A stretch of DNA of 64,000 bases from contig CACLJX010000003.1 of NCBI GenBank assembly GCA_902607435.1, positions 62,001 to 126,000 on the forward strand, given 5' to 3'. The first letter of the stretch is position 1. Each line of letters opens with the position of its first letter. The translations under genes were made by a program, and so were the position numbers. The DNA is from an uncultured Alphaproteobacteria bacterium (GTDB lineage: Bacteria > Pseudomonadota > Alphaproteobacteria > HIMB59 > GCA-002718135). This document shows, in pieces, positions 24,080 to 63,679 of the stretch. The notes under the pieces were generated by a model. That model did no database searches and was not told where the DNA came from. It saw nothing but the letters and a program-made list of their open reading frames with translations.

Positions 24080-24814
24080 ATGTCTTATTTCATAAATAAT
24101 TTAAATCAAAAAATTGCATATAAATTTTTTAAAGGAAAGTCGCCTGGTATAGTGTTTATCCATGGATTAAATTCAGACATGGAGGGCACAAAAGCTATAA
24201 GTATTGAAAAATTTGCAAAAAAAAGAGGTTTATCATACTTACGTTTTGACTGTAGAGGACATGGTAAATCACATGGTAAATTTGAAGAATTGACTATTTC
24301 TGACTGGAAAAAGGATTTAATTGATATTTTAGATAACATCACAAAAGGACCACAAATATTAATTGGTAGTAGCATGGGAGGATGGCTAATGTTACTTGCG
24401 GCCAGAGCAAGAAAATCTCGAATTGCAGCTCTAATGGGATTAGCTGCTGCTCCAGATTTTACAAAATACCTTTTTGCTGAACTGCCACAAAGAGTTCAAA
24501 ATGAAATTAATAAAAATGGAATTTCGAAAGTAAAAAAATGGAAATATAACTATACTTTTACAAAAAAATTTTTTCAAGAAGGTAAAAAAAATTTTATTTT
24601 AAATAATAATTTTTTATTTAATAAACCAATAATCCTTATACATGGTCTCAAAGATAAAGATGTTTCGTCACAAATAACCCAAAAAATCTTAAACAAAACT
24701 ACGAGTAAAAATGTTCAAATTAGATATTTAAAAAATAGTGATCATAGATTATCAAGTAAGAACGATCTCAAGATAATTTATAATGCAATTGAAAATATAT
24801 TAAATTTAATTTAA
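24080..24814 (+). CDS. Alpha/beta hydrolase
   Basis: GIVFIHGLNSDMEGTKA; RFDCRGHGKSHG; LIGSSMGGWLML nucleophile elbow (GSSMGG). Confidence 0.9.
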   Translation: MSYFINNLNQKIAYKFFKGKSPGIVFIHGLNSDMEGTKAISIEKFAKKRGLSYLRFDCRGHGKSHGKFEELTISDWKKDLIDILDNITKGPQILIGSSMGGWLMLLAARARKSRIAALMGLAAAPDFTKYLFAELPQRVQNEINKNGISKVKKWKYNYTFTKKFFQEGKKNFILNNNFLFNKPIILIHGLKDKDVSSQITQKILNKTTSKNVQIRYLKNSDHRLSSKNDLKIIYNAIENILNLI

Positions 24815-27800
24815 GCTGATTTAGCTTCATTAATTAATACAGGTTTTTCAAATTTATTTATCATTTCTTTAGGTATAACTTGCCAAAAGCATAGTTTTTC
24901 TTTTTCCCATGTGTTCAATAATTCTTTAGCATGAAATGATTTTGTTTTATCACAATGATCTTCGATCATTGTTTTTAAAATATTCTCCCAATAACTTGTC
25001 ATTTGTTGTTGATAAATCACATCCTCTAAGTTAATTCTTAAAGGCAATAATCCTGCTTTATCATAAACAAAAGCCATACCACCCGTCATACCTGCTGCAA
25101 AATTGTTTCCAACTTGTCCAAGTATCACAGCTTTACCTCCTGTCATGTATTCACAACCATTATCTCCACAACCTTCAACTACTGTTTCTGCGCCTGAATT
25201 TCTAACACAAAAACGTTCACCAGTTATTCCTGCTGCATATAATTTGCCTTTTGTTGCCCCATATAAACATACATTACCAATAATCACGCTATCTTTTGCA
25301 ACAATATTAGAAGAAGTATTTGGACGAACAATTATTGTACCACCTGATAATCCTTTACCAACATAATCATTAGCATCACCAAAAACTTCCAAAGTAATCC
25401 CTTTTACAGTGAAAGCTCCAAGAGATTGGCCCGCTGATCCTCTTAAACGAATAGATAAATGATTATCATCAAGAGCGTGCATGCCAAATTTTTTTGTTAC
25501 TACTGAAGATAAGTATGCACCTATTGCCCTTTGAGTATTATTAATGTTGTAAGTTAATTGAATTTTTTCTTTATTATTAAATAGATTAGAAGCATCTTTT
25601 AATATTTCGACATCCAAGCTTTGCGGTACTTCGTTTCTATTTTGATTTTTCGCCGCATAGTCACCAATATCAGAATCAATTTTTGTTAAAATTGGATTCA
25701 GATCTAAATCATCAAGGTCAGTACTGCCTCTATTAAGTTGATATAATAGATCAGTTCTGCCGACTATATCATTTAAGCTAGTAAATCCTAAAGAGGCTAG
25801 GATTTCTCTTACTTCTTCTGCAATAAAAGAAAATAAATTAATAACTTTTTCTGGTGTTCCTGTAAACTTAGCTCTTAGCTTCGCATCTTGTGTACAAACA
25901 CCAACAGGGCATGTATTAGAATGACATTGTCTAACCATTATACATCCCATAGCTACTAAACTAGCTGTGCCAATTCCATATTCTTCTGCGCCTAGCATTG
26001 CAGCTATAACAACATCTTTTCCAGTTTTTAATCCTCCATCAGTTCTTAAAATTACTTTATCACGAAGATTATTAAGAGAAAGAACTTGATGTACCTCACT
26101 AAGTCCAATTTCCCAAGGTAATCCTGCGTACTTAATACTTGTTTGTGGACTTGCGCCTGTTCCTCCTACATGACCTGAAATAAGAATTACATCAGCTTTT
26201 GCTTTAGCTACGCCTGCTGCAATCGTACCAATACCAGATTGTGCAACTAACTTTACACAAACTTTTGCCTCTGGGTTGATTTGTTTTAAGTCATAAATAA
26301 GCTGAGCTAGATCTTCTATTGAATATATATCATGGTGAGGAGGAGGACTAATAAGCGTCACACCTTCGATTGAGTAACGGAGCTTAGCTATGATTGATGA
26401 AACTTTACCTCCTGGTAATTGACCTCCTTCACCTGGTTTTGCACCTTGAGCAATTTTAATTTCTATTTCTTTACAGTTATTTAGATATTCCGCAGTTACT
26501 CCAAAGCGCGCACTAGCAATTTGTTTGATTGCAGATGATGGATTATCACCATTAACTTTAGGAACAAACCTTTCTGGATCCTCCCCACCTTCTCCAGAAC
26601 CAGATTTTGCACCTATTCTATTCATCGCAATAGAAAGAGTTTCATGAGCTTCAATGCTTAAAGCACCAAATGAAATACTAGGTGAAGTAAGTTTTTTTCT
26701 TATTTGATTTGTGCTTTCAACTTTATCTGTTGTTAAACTTTTTCTATTGGATTTATAATTCAATAAATCGCGTAAATTAATTGGATCATAGTTATTAACG
26801 ATTTCAGAATATTTTTTATAAGTTGAGTAACTTTCGGTACCTACTGCACTTTGAAGCATATGAATAGAAGTAGCTTCAAAAGCATGCCGATCTCCTCCTT
26901 TTCTATATCGATAAAAACCACCTATAGGTAAAGTTATTATTTCTTCATCAAATGCTTTATTGTGAATCTCGAGTGTTCTTTTTTCTAAACCAGGAAGTCC
27001 AATTCCCGAAATACGTGAAGTCATCGTAGGGAAATATTCTGCCATCAAACTTCTGCTGAGTCCAACAGCTTCAAAATTACACCCTCCTCTATATGAACTT
27101 ACAACTGAAATGCCCATTTTGCTCATAATTTTTAATATGCCGTTTTTGACTGTATTAATATATTGCTCAACACATTGTTCGTAGGATAAATTATTAAATA
27201 AACCTTTTTGATGCCTGTCCGCAATTGCTTGCTGAGCCATATACGCATTAATACTTGTTGCACCAACACCAAGTAATACTGCAAAGTAATGAATATCTAG
27301 ACACTCTGCGGACTGAATATTTAGTGAAATAAAGGTTCTAAGATTTTTCTTTATGAGATGGTGATGTACTGAACTTGTTGCAAGTATCATTGGTAAGGCG
27401 ATACGATTTGCAGAAAACTCTTTGTCAGTTAAAATAATATGAACATACCCGCTACGTACAGCATGTTCAGCCTCTTTATTAATTTTGTCTAATTCTTTTT
27501 TAAAAGAAATGTTTTTGTTATTTTTTTCAAATGTAGTATCAATGATTTTAACACTTTCGCCCATGTACTGGCGCAAAGTTTTAAATTGGTTTATTGATAG
27601 TACTGGAGAACTTAATTGAAGATGATCACATTGGTCTTCACTTTCATTAAGAATATTACTTAAATGGCCAATACGAGTTCTTAAACTCATCACTACTTTT
27701 TCACGCAAACTATCTATGGGTGGGTTTGTTACCTGACTAAAGTTTTGACGAAAAAAGTTATGCAATCCACGGTATTTATTGGATAAGACTGCAAGAGGGG

Positions 27801-29331
27801 TATCATCGCCCATTGAACCAACTGCTTCTTTTTGTTCAACTATCATTGGTTGAAGAATCAGTTCTAAATCTTCTATAGTCCATCCAAAAGCTGTCATTCT
27901 TTTACGAAGTTCTGCTTTATCTATATTCCTAAAATGTTCTTCCGCTGACTGAACTAATTTATCAATATGGACAATTTTTTTGGTCCAATTACTAAAAGGT
28001 TTTGAATTTGATAAATATGATTTGAGATCATTATCCTTATAAAGTTTTTTTTGATTAAAATTCACAGCAATCATTTGACCTGGACCAACTCGACCTTTTG
28101 CATTGATTTTAGATTCTTCAATTTCAACCATTCCTGTTTCTGAACCTACAACAAGATATTCATCTGTCTCTGTATATCTTAAAGGTCGAAGACCATTACG
28201 ATCCATCCCCGCAATTGCCCATTCGCCTTGAACAGCACAAATTGCTGCCGGACCGTCCCATGGTTCCATAACAGCATTTGCATATGCGTATAGATTTTTT
28301 AATTTTACAGTAAAATCTTTCCGATGAGCCCATGCCTCTGGTATCATCATTAATTTAACCATAGGTAATGATCGATCAGCATGAACAAGTAATTCCATTG
28401 CTGCATCAAGTGCAGCAGAATCTGAGTCGTTTGAATTAATAATAGGTTTGATATCATCAATAAAGTTTTCAAAATTTATATGCTGAAGACGTGGTTCATG
28501 AGCTGACATCCAATTCTTGTTGCCTTTGAGTGTATTAATTTCACCATTATGAGCTAACACTCTAAATGGTTGTGCTAACGACCATGTTGGAAAAGTATTT
28601 GTAGAGTACCGCTGATGATAAACAGCAAACTTTGAAATAAATCGCTTATCTAATATATCTGGATAAAAATTTGCTAGTTGTTCTGCCAAAAACAAACCTT
28701 TGTAAATTATTGAGCGGCACGAAAAAGAACAAATATAAAAATCATTTATATTTTCTTTTCTAATTTGATTCTCGATACGTTTTCTAATGATAAACAATTT
28801 TGTTTCAAAATTTTTTTCATCTTCAAAAATATCATTAGAAATTAATATTTGCTCTATCTCGGGACGTGTAATTTTTGCTTTTTCTCCTATAACTTTTGTA
28901 TTAATTGGAACGTGTCTCCAACCATAAATTTTTAACCCTTCTCTGAGTATTGCTGACTCAACAATACTTCTGGATCTTTCTTGAGCAGTAAAATCAACTC
29001 TGGGAAGAAAAATCATTCCAACACCAAAAGTAAGGTTATTGTATTTTTGGCCAGTTCTTTCAATTTGTTCAATAAAAAATTGTTTTGGTATATCTAAGTG
29101 TATCCCTGCTCCATCACCTGTTTTACCATCCGCATCAACAGCACCTCGATGATATAAACATTTAAGTGCTTCAATACCCATTTCAACTACTTCTCTTTTA
29201 GGTATACCTTGCAAAGATGCGATTAAACCAACACCGCAAGATGAATGTTCATTTAATTCATCATAAACGTGGTTTTTAATTAACTTATGTTTATTTTTTT
29301 TAAAATTTTTTATGAATGAATTATATGGCAT
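24811..29331 (-). CDS. gltB: Glutamate synthase large subunit (start trimmed from the ORF-track start at 29412)
   Basis: SSCGVGLIAS amidotransferase N-terminus, FMN/3Fe-4S region, C-terminal GXGXG domain. Met at 29329-29331 gives MPYNSFIKNF and only 11 nt of overlap with gltD. Confidence 0.97.
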   Translation of the reverse strand: MPYNSFIKNFKKNKHKLIKNHVYDELNEHSSCGVGLIASLQGIPKREVVEMGIEALKCLYHRGAVDADGKTGDGAGIHLDIPKQFFIEQIERTGQKYNNLTFGVGMIFLPRVDFTAQERSRSIVESAILREGLKIYGWRHVPINTKVIGEKAKITRPEIEQILISNDIFEDEKNFETKLFIIRKRIENQIRKENINDFYICSFSCRSIIYKGLFLAEQLANFYPDILDKRFISKFAVYHQRYSTNTFPTWSLAQPFRVLAHNGEINTLKGNKNWMSAHEPRLQHINFENFIDDIKPIINSNDSDSAALDAAMELLVHADRSLPMVKLMMIPEAWAHRKDFTVKLKNLYAYANAVMEPWDGPAAICAVQGEWAIAGMDRNGLRPLRYTETDEYLVVGSETGMVEIEESKINAKGRVGPGQMIAVNFNQKKLYKDNDLKSYLSNSKPFSNWTKKIVHIDKLVQSAEEHFRNIDKAELRKRMTAFGWTIEDLELILQPMIVEQKEAVGSMGDDTPLAVLSNKYRGLHNFFRQNFSQVTNPPIDSLREKVVMSLRTRIGHLSNILNESEDQCDHLQLSSPVLSINQFKTLRQYMGESVKIIDTTFEKNNKNISFKKELDKINKEAEHAVRSGYVHIILTDKEFSANRIALPMILATSSVHHHLIKKNLRTFISLNIQSAECLDIHYFAVLLGVGATSINAYMAQQAIADRHQKGLFNNLSYEQCVEQYINTVKNGILKIMSKMGISVVSSYRGGCNFEAVGLSRSLMAEYFPTMTSRISGIGLPGLEKRTLEIHNKAFDEEIITLPIGGFYRYRKGGDRHAFEATSIHMLQSAVGTESYSTYKKYSEIVNNYDPINLRDLLNYKSNRKSLTTDKVESTNQIRKKLTSPSISFGALSIEAHETLSIAMNRIGAKSGSGEGGEDPERFVPKVNGDNPSSAIKQIASARFGVTAEYLNNCKEIEIKIAQGAKPGEGGQLPGGKVSSIIAKLRYSIEGVTLISPPPHHDIYSIEDLAQLIYDLKQINPEAKVCVKLVAQSGIGTIAAGVAKAKADVILISGHVGGTGASPQTSIKYAGLPWEIGLSEVHQVLSLNNLRDKVILRTDGGLKTGKDVVIAAMLGAEEYGIGTASLVAMGCIMVRQCHSNTCPVGVCTQDAKLRAKFTGTPEKVINLFSFIAEEVREILASLGFTSLNDIVGRTDLLYQLNRGSTDLDDLDLNPILTKIDSDIGDYAAKNQNRNEVPQSLDVEILKDASNLFNNKEKIQLTYNINNTQRAIGAYLSSVVTKKFGMHALDDNHLSIRLRGSAGQSLGAFTVKGITLEVFGDANDYVGKGLSGGTIIVRPNTSSNIVAKDSVIIGNVCLYGATKGKLYAAGITGERFCVRNSGAETVVEGCGDNGCEYMTGGKAVILGQVGNNFAAGMTGGMAFVYDKAGLLPLRINLEDVIYQQQMTSYWENILKTMIEDHCDKTKSFHAKELLNTWEKEKLCFWQVIPKEMINKFEKPVLINEAKSA

Positions 29332-30772
29332 GCGCTGCTTTTTTGCTGGATAGATTAGCAACTGTTGAATTCTTTTCTTCGAAATAATTATGTATATTAC
29401 TAGCCGCATCACGACCGTCTTTTATCCCCCATACAACTAGACCTGCTCCTCTAACAATGTCTCCTGCTGCAAAAACTCCATCAATTTTTGACATCATATT
29501 TTGAAAATCTATCAATATTGTCCCCCATTGGGTTACTTGTAAGTTTGGTTCATTAAACATCATTGGAATGTTCTCAGCATCAAAACCAAGAGCTTCAATA
29601 ATCAAATCACTTTTAATTTCATACTCACTTCCAGGTAATTGTTCTGATTGTCTTCTCCCAGTTTCATCTTGAGAACCAAGCTGCATTTTTATAATATTGA
29701 CATTTTCTACATTTTTTTTGCCAAAATATTTTATTGGTAATGTTAACCAATGAAATTCTATTCCTTCTTCGATGGCATTTAAAACTTCTGTTTGTGACCC
29801 AGGCATATTTTTTTGATCACGTCTATATAAACATTTTACAGATTTAGCACCTTGTCTTACAGCTGTCCTAACACAGTCCATAGCTGTATCTCCTCCACCT
29901 ATGACTACTACATTTTTTTTATTACTATTTAGTTTTCCATTATCAAATTCTTCAACTTTGTCTTTTAAGCCTTTTCTATTGCTAGCAGTTAAAAAATCTA
30001 AAGCTGCAACAACATTTGAAAATTTGTTGTAATTGAGATTAATTTCACGTGGCTTATACACTCCTGTTGCTATCAAAATTGCATTATGTTTTTTCTTAAT
30101 ATCACTAAAACTAACTGTTGATCCTACTTCACAATTTAATTTAATTTCTATACCACTCTGAAGAAGTCTGTTTGTTCTTCTTATAATTATTTCTTTTTCT
30201 AATTTAAAATTTGGTATACCGTATATTAATAAACCTCCAGCCCGATCATTTCGATCATATATTGTAACTTGATAACCTTTTTTACGAAGTTCTTCAGCAG
30301 CTGAAAGTCCAGCAGGGCCTGAACCAATTATTCCAACTGAATGTTTTTTTTCTTTTTGAATCTCAATTGGCTTGATCCATCCTTGATCCCAAGCATTTTC
30401 CGTTATATATTTTTCTATTGAGCCAATTGTAACAGTACCATGGCCTGATTGTTCAATAACACAATTACCTTCACATAGTCTGTCCTGAGGACAAATTCGG
30501 CCACAAACTTCAGGCATGTTATTAGTCGCACTGGAAAGCTCATAGGCTTCTTCAAGTCTGTTCTCCGCAGTTAATTTTAGCCAATCTGGTATATTATTGT
30601 TTAAAGGACAATGAACTTGACAAAATGGCACTCCACATTGTGAACATCTAGAAGCTTGTTCAGCTGCTTTAACTTTAGCATACCTGGAATAAATCTCCTG
30701 AAAATGCTTTTTTCTTTTACTTGATGATTGCTTGGTAGGACTTTCCAGAGAAATATTAACAAATTTATGCAT
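29321..30772 (-). CDS. gltD: Glutamate synthase small subunit
   Basis: CSQCGVPFCQVHCPLNNNIPDWL, IGSGPAGLSAAEELRKKGYQVTIYDR, GGGDTAMDCVRTAVRQGA. Confidence 0.97.
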   Translation of the reverse strand: MHKFVNISLESPTKQSSSKRKKHFQEIYSRYAKVKAAEQASRCSQCGVPFCQVHCPLNNNIPDWLKLTAENRLEEAYELSSATNNMPEVCGRICPQDRLCEGNCVIEQSGHGTVTIGSIEKYITENAWDQGWIKPIEIQKEKKHSVGIIGSGPAGLSAAEELRKKGYQVTIYDRNDRAGGLLIYGIPNFKLEKEIIIRRTNRLLQSGIEIKLNCEVGSTVSFSDIKKKHNAILIATGVYKPREINLNYNKFSNVVAALDFLTASNRKGLKDKVEEFDNGKLNSNKKNVVVIGGGDTAMDCVRTAVRQGAKSVKCLYRRDQKNMPGSQTEVLNAIEEGIEFHWLTLPIKYFGKKNVENVNIIKMQLGSQDETGRRQSEQLPGSEYEIKSDLIIEALGFDAENIPMMFNEPNLQVTQWGTILIDFQNMMSKIDGVFAAGDIVRGAGLVVWGIKDGRDAASNIHNYFEEKNSTVANLSSKKAAHAI

Positions 30773-30879
30773 AATAGTAAAATAATGGTACTAAAATTAA
30801 TTATATATTTAGGCAATACATACACTAAATATGAAAAGATACAAAAAATAGCAAAAATTAGTACCACAAATTTACTATT
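30773..30879 (-). promoter_or_regulatory. Structured leader/long inverted repeat upstream of gltDB
   Basis: Arms 30773-30798 and 30855-30879 share AATAGTAAA-N5-GGTACTAA in inverted orientation with equal spacing. A nested perfect hairpin atatttag-N12-ctaaatat lies at 30805-30832. Confidence 0.55.
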
Positions 30880-30913
30880 GATTAAAAAATAACAGTATTT
30901 CAAAAAAAATACC

Positions 30914-61892: not shown

Positions 61893-62429
61893 TTATTCTT
61901 TGGGTGCATGTTTATTAAGAATACGTTGCAAGGTACGTCTGTGCATTCTTAGTCTTCTTGCTGTTTCTGACACATTTCTATTACATTGAATAAATACTCT
62001 TTGAATATGTTCCCAGCGAATCCTATTAGCTGTCATAGGATTTTCAGGTGGTGGAGGTAATGTTTGTTTAGATGAGATTAAAGCATCATAAATCTGGTCA
62101 ACTTCTGCAGGTTTGGGTAAATAATCAATTGCTCCTGATTTTATTGCAGCAACAGCCGTTGCAATATTACCATAACCAGTTAAAAAAAGAGACCTTGTTT
62201 CTGGGCTAGTGACTTTTATTGATTGAATAATTTCTAAACCAGATCCATCTTCTAATCTCATATCAACTATTGCATAATTAAAATTTTTTTCTTTAAGACG
62301 AGCAATTGCTTTTTTAGCTTCTCCAAAATATTCTACATTAAATCCTTTTTTCTCCATAGATCGGGCTAATCGCTCTCTAAAAGGCGTATCGTCATCAATA
62401 ATTATCAAACTATTATCCATAATTTTCAA
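61893..62429 (-). CDS. regA: Response regulator RegA/ActR/PrrA family
   Basis: LIIDDDTPFRERLARSMEKKGF; YAIVDMRLEDGSGLEII; C-terminal Fis-type HTH NVSETARRLRMHRRTLQRILNKHAP. Confidence 0.95.
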   Translation of the reverse strand: MKIMDNSLIIIDDDTPFRERLARSMEKKGFNVEYFGEAKKAIARLKEKNFNYAIVDMRLEDGSGLEIIQSIKVTSPETRSLFLTGYGNIATAVAAIKSGAIDYLPKPAEVDQIYDALISSKQTLPPPPENPMTANRIRWEHIQRVFIQCNRNVSETARRLRMHRRTLQRILNKHAPKE

Positions 62430-63679
62430 AGATTTCTTTTTAATTGAATTTGAACAATTGATCCATTCGAATTACGTTGATTTTGAAATTTAATTTTTCC
62501 TCCTGCATTTTCAATTAAATATTTTGCAATAAAAATACCCAATCCCATACTTTTTTCATATTTATTATATGAAATAAATGGGCTTCCTATTTTATCTAAA
62601 ACTTCTTTAGGAAAACCGTTTCCATCATCTTTTATCACTAATAAAACAACTATTTTTTCCCATGAAATTTCTACATGAATTATTTTATTAGCGTGTTCTA
62701 AAGCATTTTGAATAATATTACCTAGGCCATACATTATTTCATCAGAAAATTTAATTTTTGGTTCATTACCTTGATTTTCAATTTGTATATCAATAAGAAT
62801 ATTATTTTTTTTGAATTTTTGGTAATTTATTTTTACTAAATCAGACAAGGTTATTTTATCTAAAAAGGTATCCTTAATTTTTTGTGGATTTTTTGATAAT
62901 TTAAATAATATTTCTTTGCACCTATTTGCTTGAGATTCCAATAGATTGATTTCTGATTTTAAGTCATTACTATTATTAAATATTTTATCTTTTTTTAAAT
63001 CATCTAGAATTAAAAAAATTGTATTCAAGGGTGTGCTGAGTTCATGCACCGCTGCTGCTGTTAATGATCCTACTTCAGACATTTTTTTTTGATTAATAAG
63101 AGCTATTTGTGTTTGATTTAAAGCATTTGATATTTTTTTAGATGAATAAGATAAAATATAAACATACACAGCTATAAATATTAATGAAATAACTAATGAT
63201 ACTATTAATCCATAAGTGAATAAACTAGGTACAAAAAAATCTTGTGACCATTGAATTTCAATATAAAAAAAACTTATAAATATTACTATTAAAATAGATA
63301 ATATTGATAAAACAATTGAGAATCCTACTTTTAAATATGAGGAAGATATAATAATAGGAGCAATTAATAGTAAAGAAAAAGGATTATAAATCCCTCCGGT
63401 TAGATACAATAAAACTGCTAGTTGAATTGTATCAAACAATAAAAAATAAAATGCTTCGTAATCATTTAAATAATTATTTTCTTTTTTTTTAACAAGGCTT
63501 AGAAGATTAATTATAATTGAAATTAAAACTACTAATGAACAAAATATGATTGGTATTGGAATAGATAAGAAATAATAAACAAATAATATTGCAGAAGACT
63601 GACCAATGATTCCAATCCACCTAATATTAATTAGATTGCTTAATAATATATTGTTGTTAAATTTTAAAAAGTTAAACAT
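62426..63679 (-). CDS. regB: Sensor histidine kinase RegB/ActS/PrrB family
   Basis: Six-TM N-terminus with GGIYNPF, H-box AAAVHELSTPLNTI, MGLGIFIAKYLIENAGG; overlaps regA by 4 nt. Confidence 0.93.
   Translation of the reverse strand: MFNFLKFNNNILLSNLINIRWIGIIGQSSAILFVYYFLSIPIPIIFCSLVVLISIIINLLSLVKKKENNYLNDYEAFYFLLFDTIQLAVLLYLTGGIYNPFSLLLIAPIIISSSYLKVGFSIVLSILSILIVIFISFFYIEIQWSQDFFVPSLFTYGLIVSLVISLIFIAVYVYILSYSSKKISNALNQTQIALINQKKMSEVGSLTAAAVHELSTPLNTIFLILDDLKKDKIFNNSNDLKSEINLLESQANRCKEILFKLSKNPQKIKDTFLDKITLSDLVKINYQKFKKNNILIDIQIENQGNEPKIKFSDEIMYGLGNIIQNALEHANKIIHVEISWEKIVVLLVIKDDGNGFPKEVLDKIGSPFISYNKYEKSMGLGIFIAKYLIENAGGKIKFQNQRNSNGSIVQIQLKRNL

Follow-up and report, generated by a model that had tools for sequence, protein, structure and literature searches.

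A conserved and probably functional operator pair, rather than a riboswitch, predicted upstream of gltD in ocean bacteria of the HIMB59 order

Does the long inverted repeat that runs up to the start codon of gltD act in RNA, as a leader that closes the start of translation, or in DNA, as binding sites for a regulator of glutamate synthase? The repeat lies in a 64-kb stretch of DNA (the whole stretch analysed, here called the window) belonging to an AT-rich genome of 1.5 Mb, which is assembled into 37 contigs and is 84% complete. The host clade consists of widespread, hardly cultivated ocean bacteria whose gene regulation is largely unknown. The genome is taken to belong to the HIMB59 / AEGEAN-169 order, for which two families have been described (PMC10734472). 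The sister family of the window's own is HIMB59-like and includes one genome available as a single 1,410,127-bp contig. The genes and the parts of the repeat are located in the window as follows.

24811..29409 (-): gltB, glutamate synthase large subunit (NF008730, E 0), downstream of gltD in the same operon; its start codon is uncertain, and the listed ORF overlaps the gltD 3' end
29321..30772 (-): gltD, glutamate synthase small subunit (TIGR01318, E 4.5e-148), the presumed regulated gene
30772-30770 (-): gltD ATG, immediately 3' of the distal arm
30794-30773 (-): distal arm, in gltD orientation TTAGTACC-ATTAT-TTTACTATT
30805..30832 (-): inner inverted repeat of 8 bp with a 12-nt loop, ATATTTAG/CTAAATAT (halves 30805-30812 and 30825-30832)
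30879-30858 (-): upstream arm, in gltD orientation AATAGTAAA-TTTGT-GGTACTAA

The preliminary description of this leader had reported a two-part inverted repeat abutting the gltD start codon, with a separate hairpin nested inside, and all of these elements were recovered. The arms are inverted copies of each other with 17 matched positions and a further 2 of the 5 positions in the gap, the ATG follows the distal arm directly, and the repeat ranks as the second-longest among the close inverted repeats of the window. The inner 8-bp hairpin with its 12-nt loop is also present; in relatives it is not conserved (40.5% of cells paired across 16 leaders) and is probably incidental. No second copy of the gltD leader was found in the window genome, and a genome-wide repeat element of the REP or MITE type was rejected because the leader is single-copy.

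A point missed in the preliminary description is that each arm is an imperfect dyad by itself. In the window's family the dyad reads TAGTAC-N7-GTACTA, with the core GTAM-N7-KTAC, and both arms carry 11 of its 12 positions.

30859..30877 (-): S1, predicted upstream operator, dyad TAGTAAATTTGTGGTACTA, core GTAA-N7-GTAC
30775..30793 (-): S2, predicted downstream operator, dyad TAGTACCATTATTTTACTA, core GTAC-N7-TTAC, ending 2 nt ahead of the gltD ATG

Resampling the dinucleotides of the leader 5,000 times gave no sequence with two dyads as good as S1 and S2. That the arms are complementary as RNA would be a side effect of the proximity of two dyads.

The conservation of the sites was followed in 32 usable gltD leaders of the window's family, namely the window's own, 28 others, that of G003 and those of two named single-cell contigs. 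Both S1 and S2 are kept in all 32, with a spacing of 81-84 bp (84 bp in G003) and with S2 ending 0-5 nt ahead of the ATG. An alignment of 16 leaders contains only 14 invariant columns, which are mostly half-sites and the start codon, and the sites outlast the sequence around them. In genus g6, represented by 19 leaders, the most conserved stretches are the S1 half-sites, the block TTGAATGTGTATTTGGTTCGATCTAGATAAAA and S2; the S1 half-sites are invariant there and the S1 centre is variable. In most g6 genomes S2 matches the dyad poorly (7/12; TAGTAAACAAATGATAACTA) yet is almost invariant, and S2 is more diverged than S1 in several lineages. The S1 of G003 is altered in both halves together, to TAGTCT-N7-AGACTA, while covariation inside the dyads is marginal only.

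The two-site layout is also kept in 18 of the 19 leaders of the sister family with a diverged motif, the sites being GTCATAATTTATTAT-like and GTAATATTTTATTAT-like, 82-84 bp apart, with the second at -16 and with the core GTMA-N7-TTA. If one or two departures are allowed, a common 15-bp core of both families can be written as GTAM-N7-KTAC. The two-site architecture, with a spacing of about 83 bases, is order-wide. Close inspection of one sister-family leader showed its two copies to be direct repeats, and in some lineages of the window's family S1 likewise matches S2 better in direct than in inverted orientation, which implies that the inverted orientation is not the conserved property. The upstream gene differs in the sister family, where it is divergent and was recognised by eye as uppP. 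In the sister-family gltD leaders L136-L154, S1 overlaps the start codon of this uppP-like gene, so the site pair may control both genes.

The specificity of the sites was assessed with a scoring matrix built solely from the sites of other genomes, the window's sites being excluded. In a scan of the 1.5-Mb genome, S2 was the best match (22.0) and S1 the second (17.4); the third (15.3) and those following it lie within ORFs. The only intergenic core pair 80-86 bp apart in the window genome is S1/S2. Each of 22 relatives has a single exact copy of the dyad in its genome, placed some 100 bp ahead of gltD. The motif is confined to gltD, and a global regulon of the NtrC type, which would have many strong sites, was rejected. 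One further two-site layout was noticed at L108, where TAGTAATTAATTATTACTA (L108:1050-1068) stands 18 bp ahead of an ORF to which no function was assigned (MDIYNFNQNPIDIVEDVIY...) and a weaker copy is present 94 bp further upstream (956-974); this layout resembles the gltD pair, perhaps by chance.

The interval between the two sites resembles a promoter.

30794..30858 (-): 65 bp separating the predicted operators, taken from conservation to be the gltDB promoter
30800-30805 (-): TATAAT, likely -10, starting at -33 relative to the ATG

A promoter-like footprint, TTGAAT-N17-TAGATA, is conserved in genus g6 at the same place as the TATAAT of the window, and the g6 block TTGAATGTGTATTTGGTTCGATCTAGATAAAA can be read as -35 and -10 elements separated by 17 bp, its end touching S2. 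From the location of this footprint between S1 and S2, transcription probably begins in S2; an mRNA whose start is set by the promoter-like block would not contain S1. The AT-rich DNA gave no more than chance matches in simple promoter and terminator scans. On the far side of S1, just past the upstream gene, GGTATTTTTTTTGAAATACT (window 30894-30913, minus strand) folds as an 8-bp hairpin, which was missed by the terminator scan and may be a weak terminator parting the upstream gene from gltD.

The reading favoured in the preliminary description was a translational riboswitch or structured leader. In such a device the arms would pair in the mRNA and close off initiation at gltD, and the inner hairpin would belong to a ligand-binding fold. 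The window sequence by itself speaks for it, since its leader folds at -27.2 kcal/mol (z -6.0), as low as none of 200 shuffles, and two single-cell relatives also fall below their shuffles (z -3.9 and -2.6). Most relatives' leaders, however, fold at or near the shuffle level, and RNAalifold finds no consensus structure, predicting 0 pairs on 16 leaders. When the structure of the window is laid over these leaders, 55.0% of cells are paired against 55.8% in shuffled ones, and covariation on it stays below the shuffled mean; the homologous leaders thus lack covariation, which on the preliminary description's own terms tells against the leader it proposed. The S1-S2 pairing of a lineage is no better than pairing swapped between lineages (permutation P 0.79; 0.91 without the window), and a fold in the mRNA is also hard to reconcile with the several lineages in which S1 resembles S2 more closely as a direct than as an inverted repeat. 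No known riboswitch class had been recognised in the preliminary description, and cmscan with Rfam 15 on the whole window likewise gave no match at the gathering score. As a conserved device the RNA leader is refuted, and we regard it as a most improbable account of the locus, although an RNA effect could yet operate in the genome of the window alone. This removes a riboswitch candidate and puts in its place a testable operator pair for ammonia assimilation. It also illustrates a general pitfall: a pair of neighbouring palindromic operators can, in a single genome, pass for a strong RNA hairpin, and comparison with relatives is the only way to distinguish them.

The inverted repeat is probably a conserved, functional operator pair. 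Operators of a DNA-looping regulator had been named as the alternative in the preliminary description; the pair itself is borne out by its conservation and spacing in relatives, while for the loop it is the spacing by itself that speaks. With considerable confidence, we propose that the arms are two operators for one dimeric regulator, which flank the gltDB promoter, are probably looped and control initiation. One homodimeric transcription factor would bind both S1, upstream of the gltDB promoter, and S2, over the transcription start and reaching the start codon, the two lying about 8 helical turns apart. This conserved spacing, which keeps the sites in helical phase in both families, suggests simultaneous occupation, in which the factor would probably bridge the two into a small DNA loop that holds RNA polymerase off or releases it. 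Initiation at gltDB would be controlled by nitrogen or glutamate status, most simply by repression, which the position of S2 over the presumed start favours. The main rival to the loop is that the operators are used separately, for example by an activator at S1 and by the same or another protein that blocks the start at S2. The greater divergence of S2 in several lineages, as if the two roles differed, is in keeping with this, and the GltC boxes I, II and III at gltAB, which are used in alternative pairs, provide a precedent (PMC6794564). Separate use would not need so constant a spacing, which stays at 81-84 bp in the window's family and 82-84 bp in the sister family even as the sequence turns over, and we consider it an appreciable possibility, but the less probable course.

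As to the protein, NtrX, an NtrC-family regulator present in both families, is the best candidate for S1/S2, although this remains a tentative conjecture. Genes with a Fis-type HTH (HTH_8) were found in 25 of 26 genomes from both families, the exception being G008 (80% complete), and in G006, G010 and G012 the sole match is RegA-sized. There are at most two HTH_8 matches per genome, and so no sign of NtrC. In the window genome the Fis-type regulators are a RegA-like protein and an NtrX-like protein, the latter adjoining an NtrY-like kinase in an NtrYX locus. For NtrX of Sinorhizobium meliloti, repression through binding across transcription starts has been proposed (PMC9223101), and the Rhodobacter sphaeroides NtrX motif is quoted as GCA-N9-TGC (PMC9223101, citing PMC7240162). 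Compared with the motif as quoted there, the gltD sites, written GTA-N9-TAC, have the identical 15-bp geometry in the length and spacing of the half-sites, but their half-sites differ by one letter position each. Other published NtrX sites follow CAAN2-5TTG. Against NtrX, inspection of the region upstream of ntrY in the window genome showed no clear site, and confinement to one operon would be unusual for such a regulator. A broader and rather speculative view, which we hold to be somewhat unlikely, is that in this streamlined order, in which no NtrC was detected, a Fis-type NtrX with strong sites at one looped gltDB promoter may be the sole dedicated nitrogen switch. If true, a single protein acting at a single promoter would control ammonia assimilation. 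Elsewhere in the window, a RegA/ActR-like response regulator (61893-62420, minus strand) lies next to a histidine-kinase-like ORF (62426-63679, minus strand).

Other families of regulators were compared with the distribution of the sites. No LysR (GltC-type) regulator was found in the window genome, at its 84% completeness, or in four g5 genomes, all of which bear the sites. Lrp/AsnC, GntR, XRE and TetR proteins are each missing from several site-bearing genomes, which are incomplete. Because most of the genomes are incomplete, the absence of a family counts as evidence, not as proof. A MarR-family protein encoded elsewhere in the genome, beside a branched-chain aminotransferase gene (G000:C14:5317-5802), could instead be the dedicated gltDB regulator; 30 genomes of the window's family have it, and G001, itself without gltD, does not. 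It is also missing from the whole sister family, which nevertheless keeps a version of the operator pair, and was not found in the site-bearing, incomplete genomes G007, G011, G023, G028 and G030. Overall this protein is an improbable, though not far-fetched, regulator of gltDB, and the leader of its own gene has a motif unlike that of gltD. That leader, AATGACAATTGACTATCAGTGATGCATAATTAAGTCAATATG (L108:5803-5845, on G000:C14), is almost invariant across the family and is a probable promoter with an autoregulatory operator.

In gal, lac and similar systems, two operators form a repression loop. The gltD leader is like these in that two dyads flank one promoter at a near-integral helical spacing, and unlike them in its motif and in that its loop is read from the spacing alone. 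At the gltAB promoter of Bacillus subtilis, one pairing among GltC boxes I-III excludes RNA polymerase (PMC6794564). The likeness is that several similar sites of one regulator surround the promoter of glutamate synthase. The difference lies in there being two sites at gltD, not three, and in GltC being a LysR protein, a family whose genes were not found in the site-bearing genomes of the window and of g5. Structured leaders of SAR11 and other marine bacteria (SAM-V, glnA RNA, Downstream-peptide) likewise sit immediately ahead of a metabolic gene's start codon, as does the Pelagibacter metY motif (PMC2704228). Unlike SAM-V, glnA RNA and Downstream-peptide, the gltD leader has no covariation, conserved structure or Rfam match. 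The gltD operator pair is a new instance of an already known type of control.
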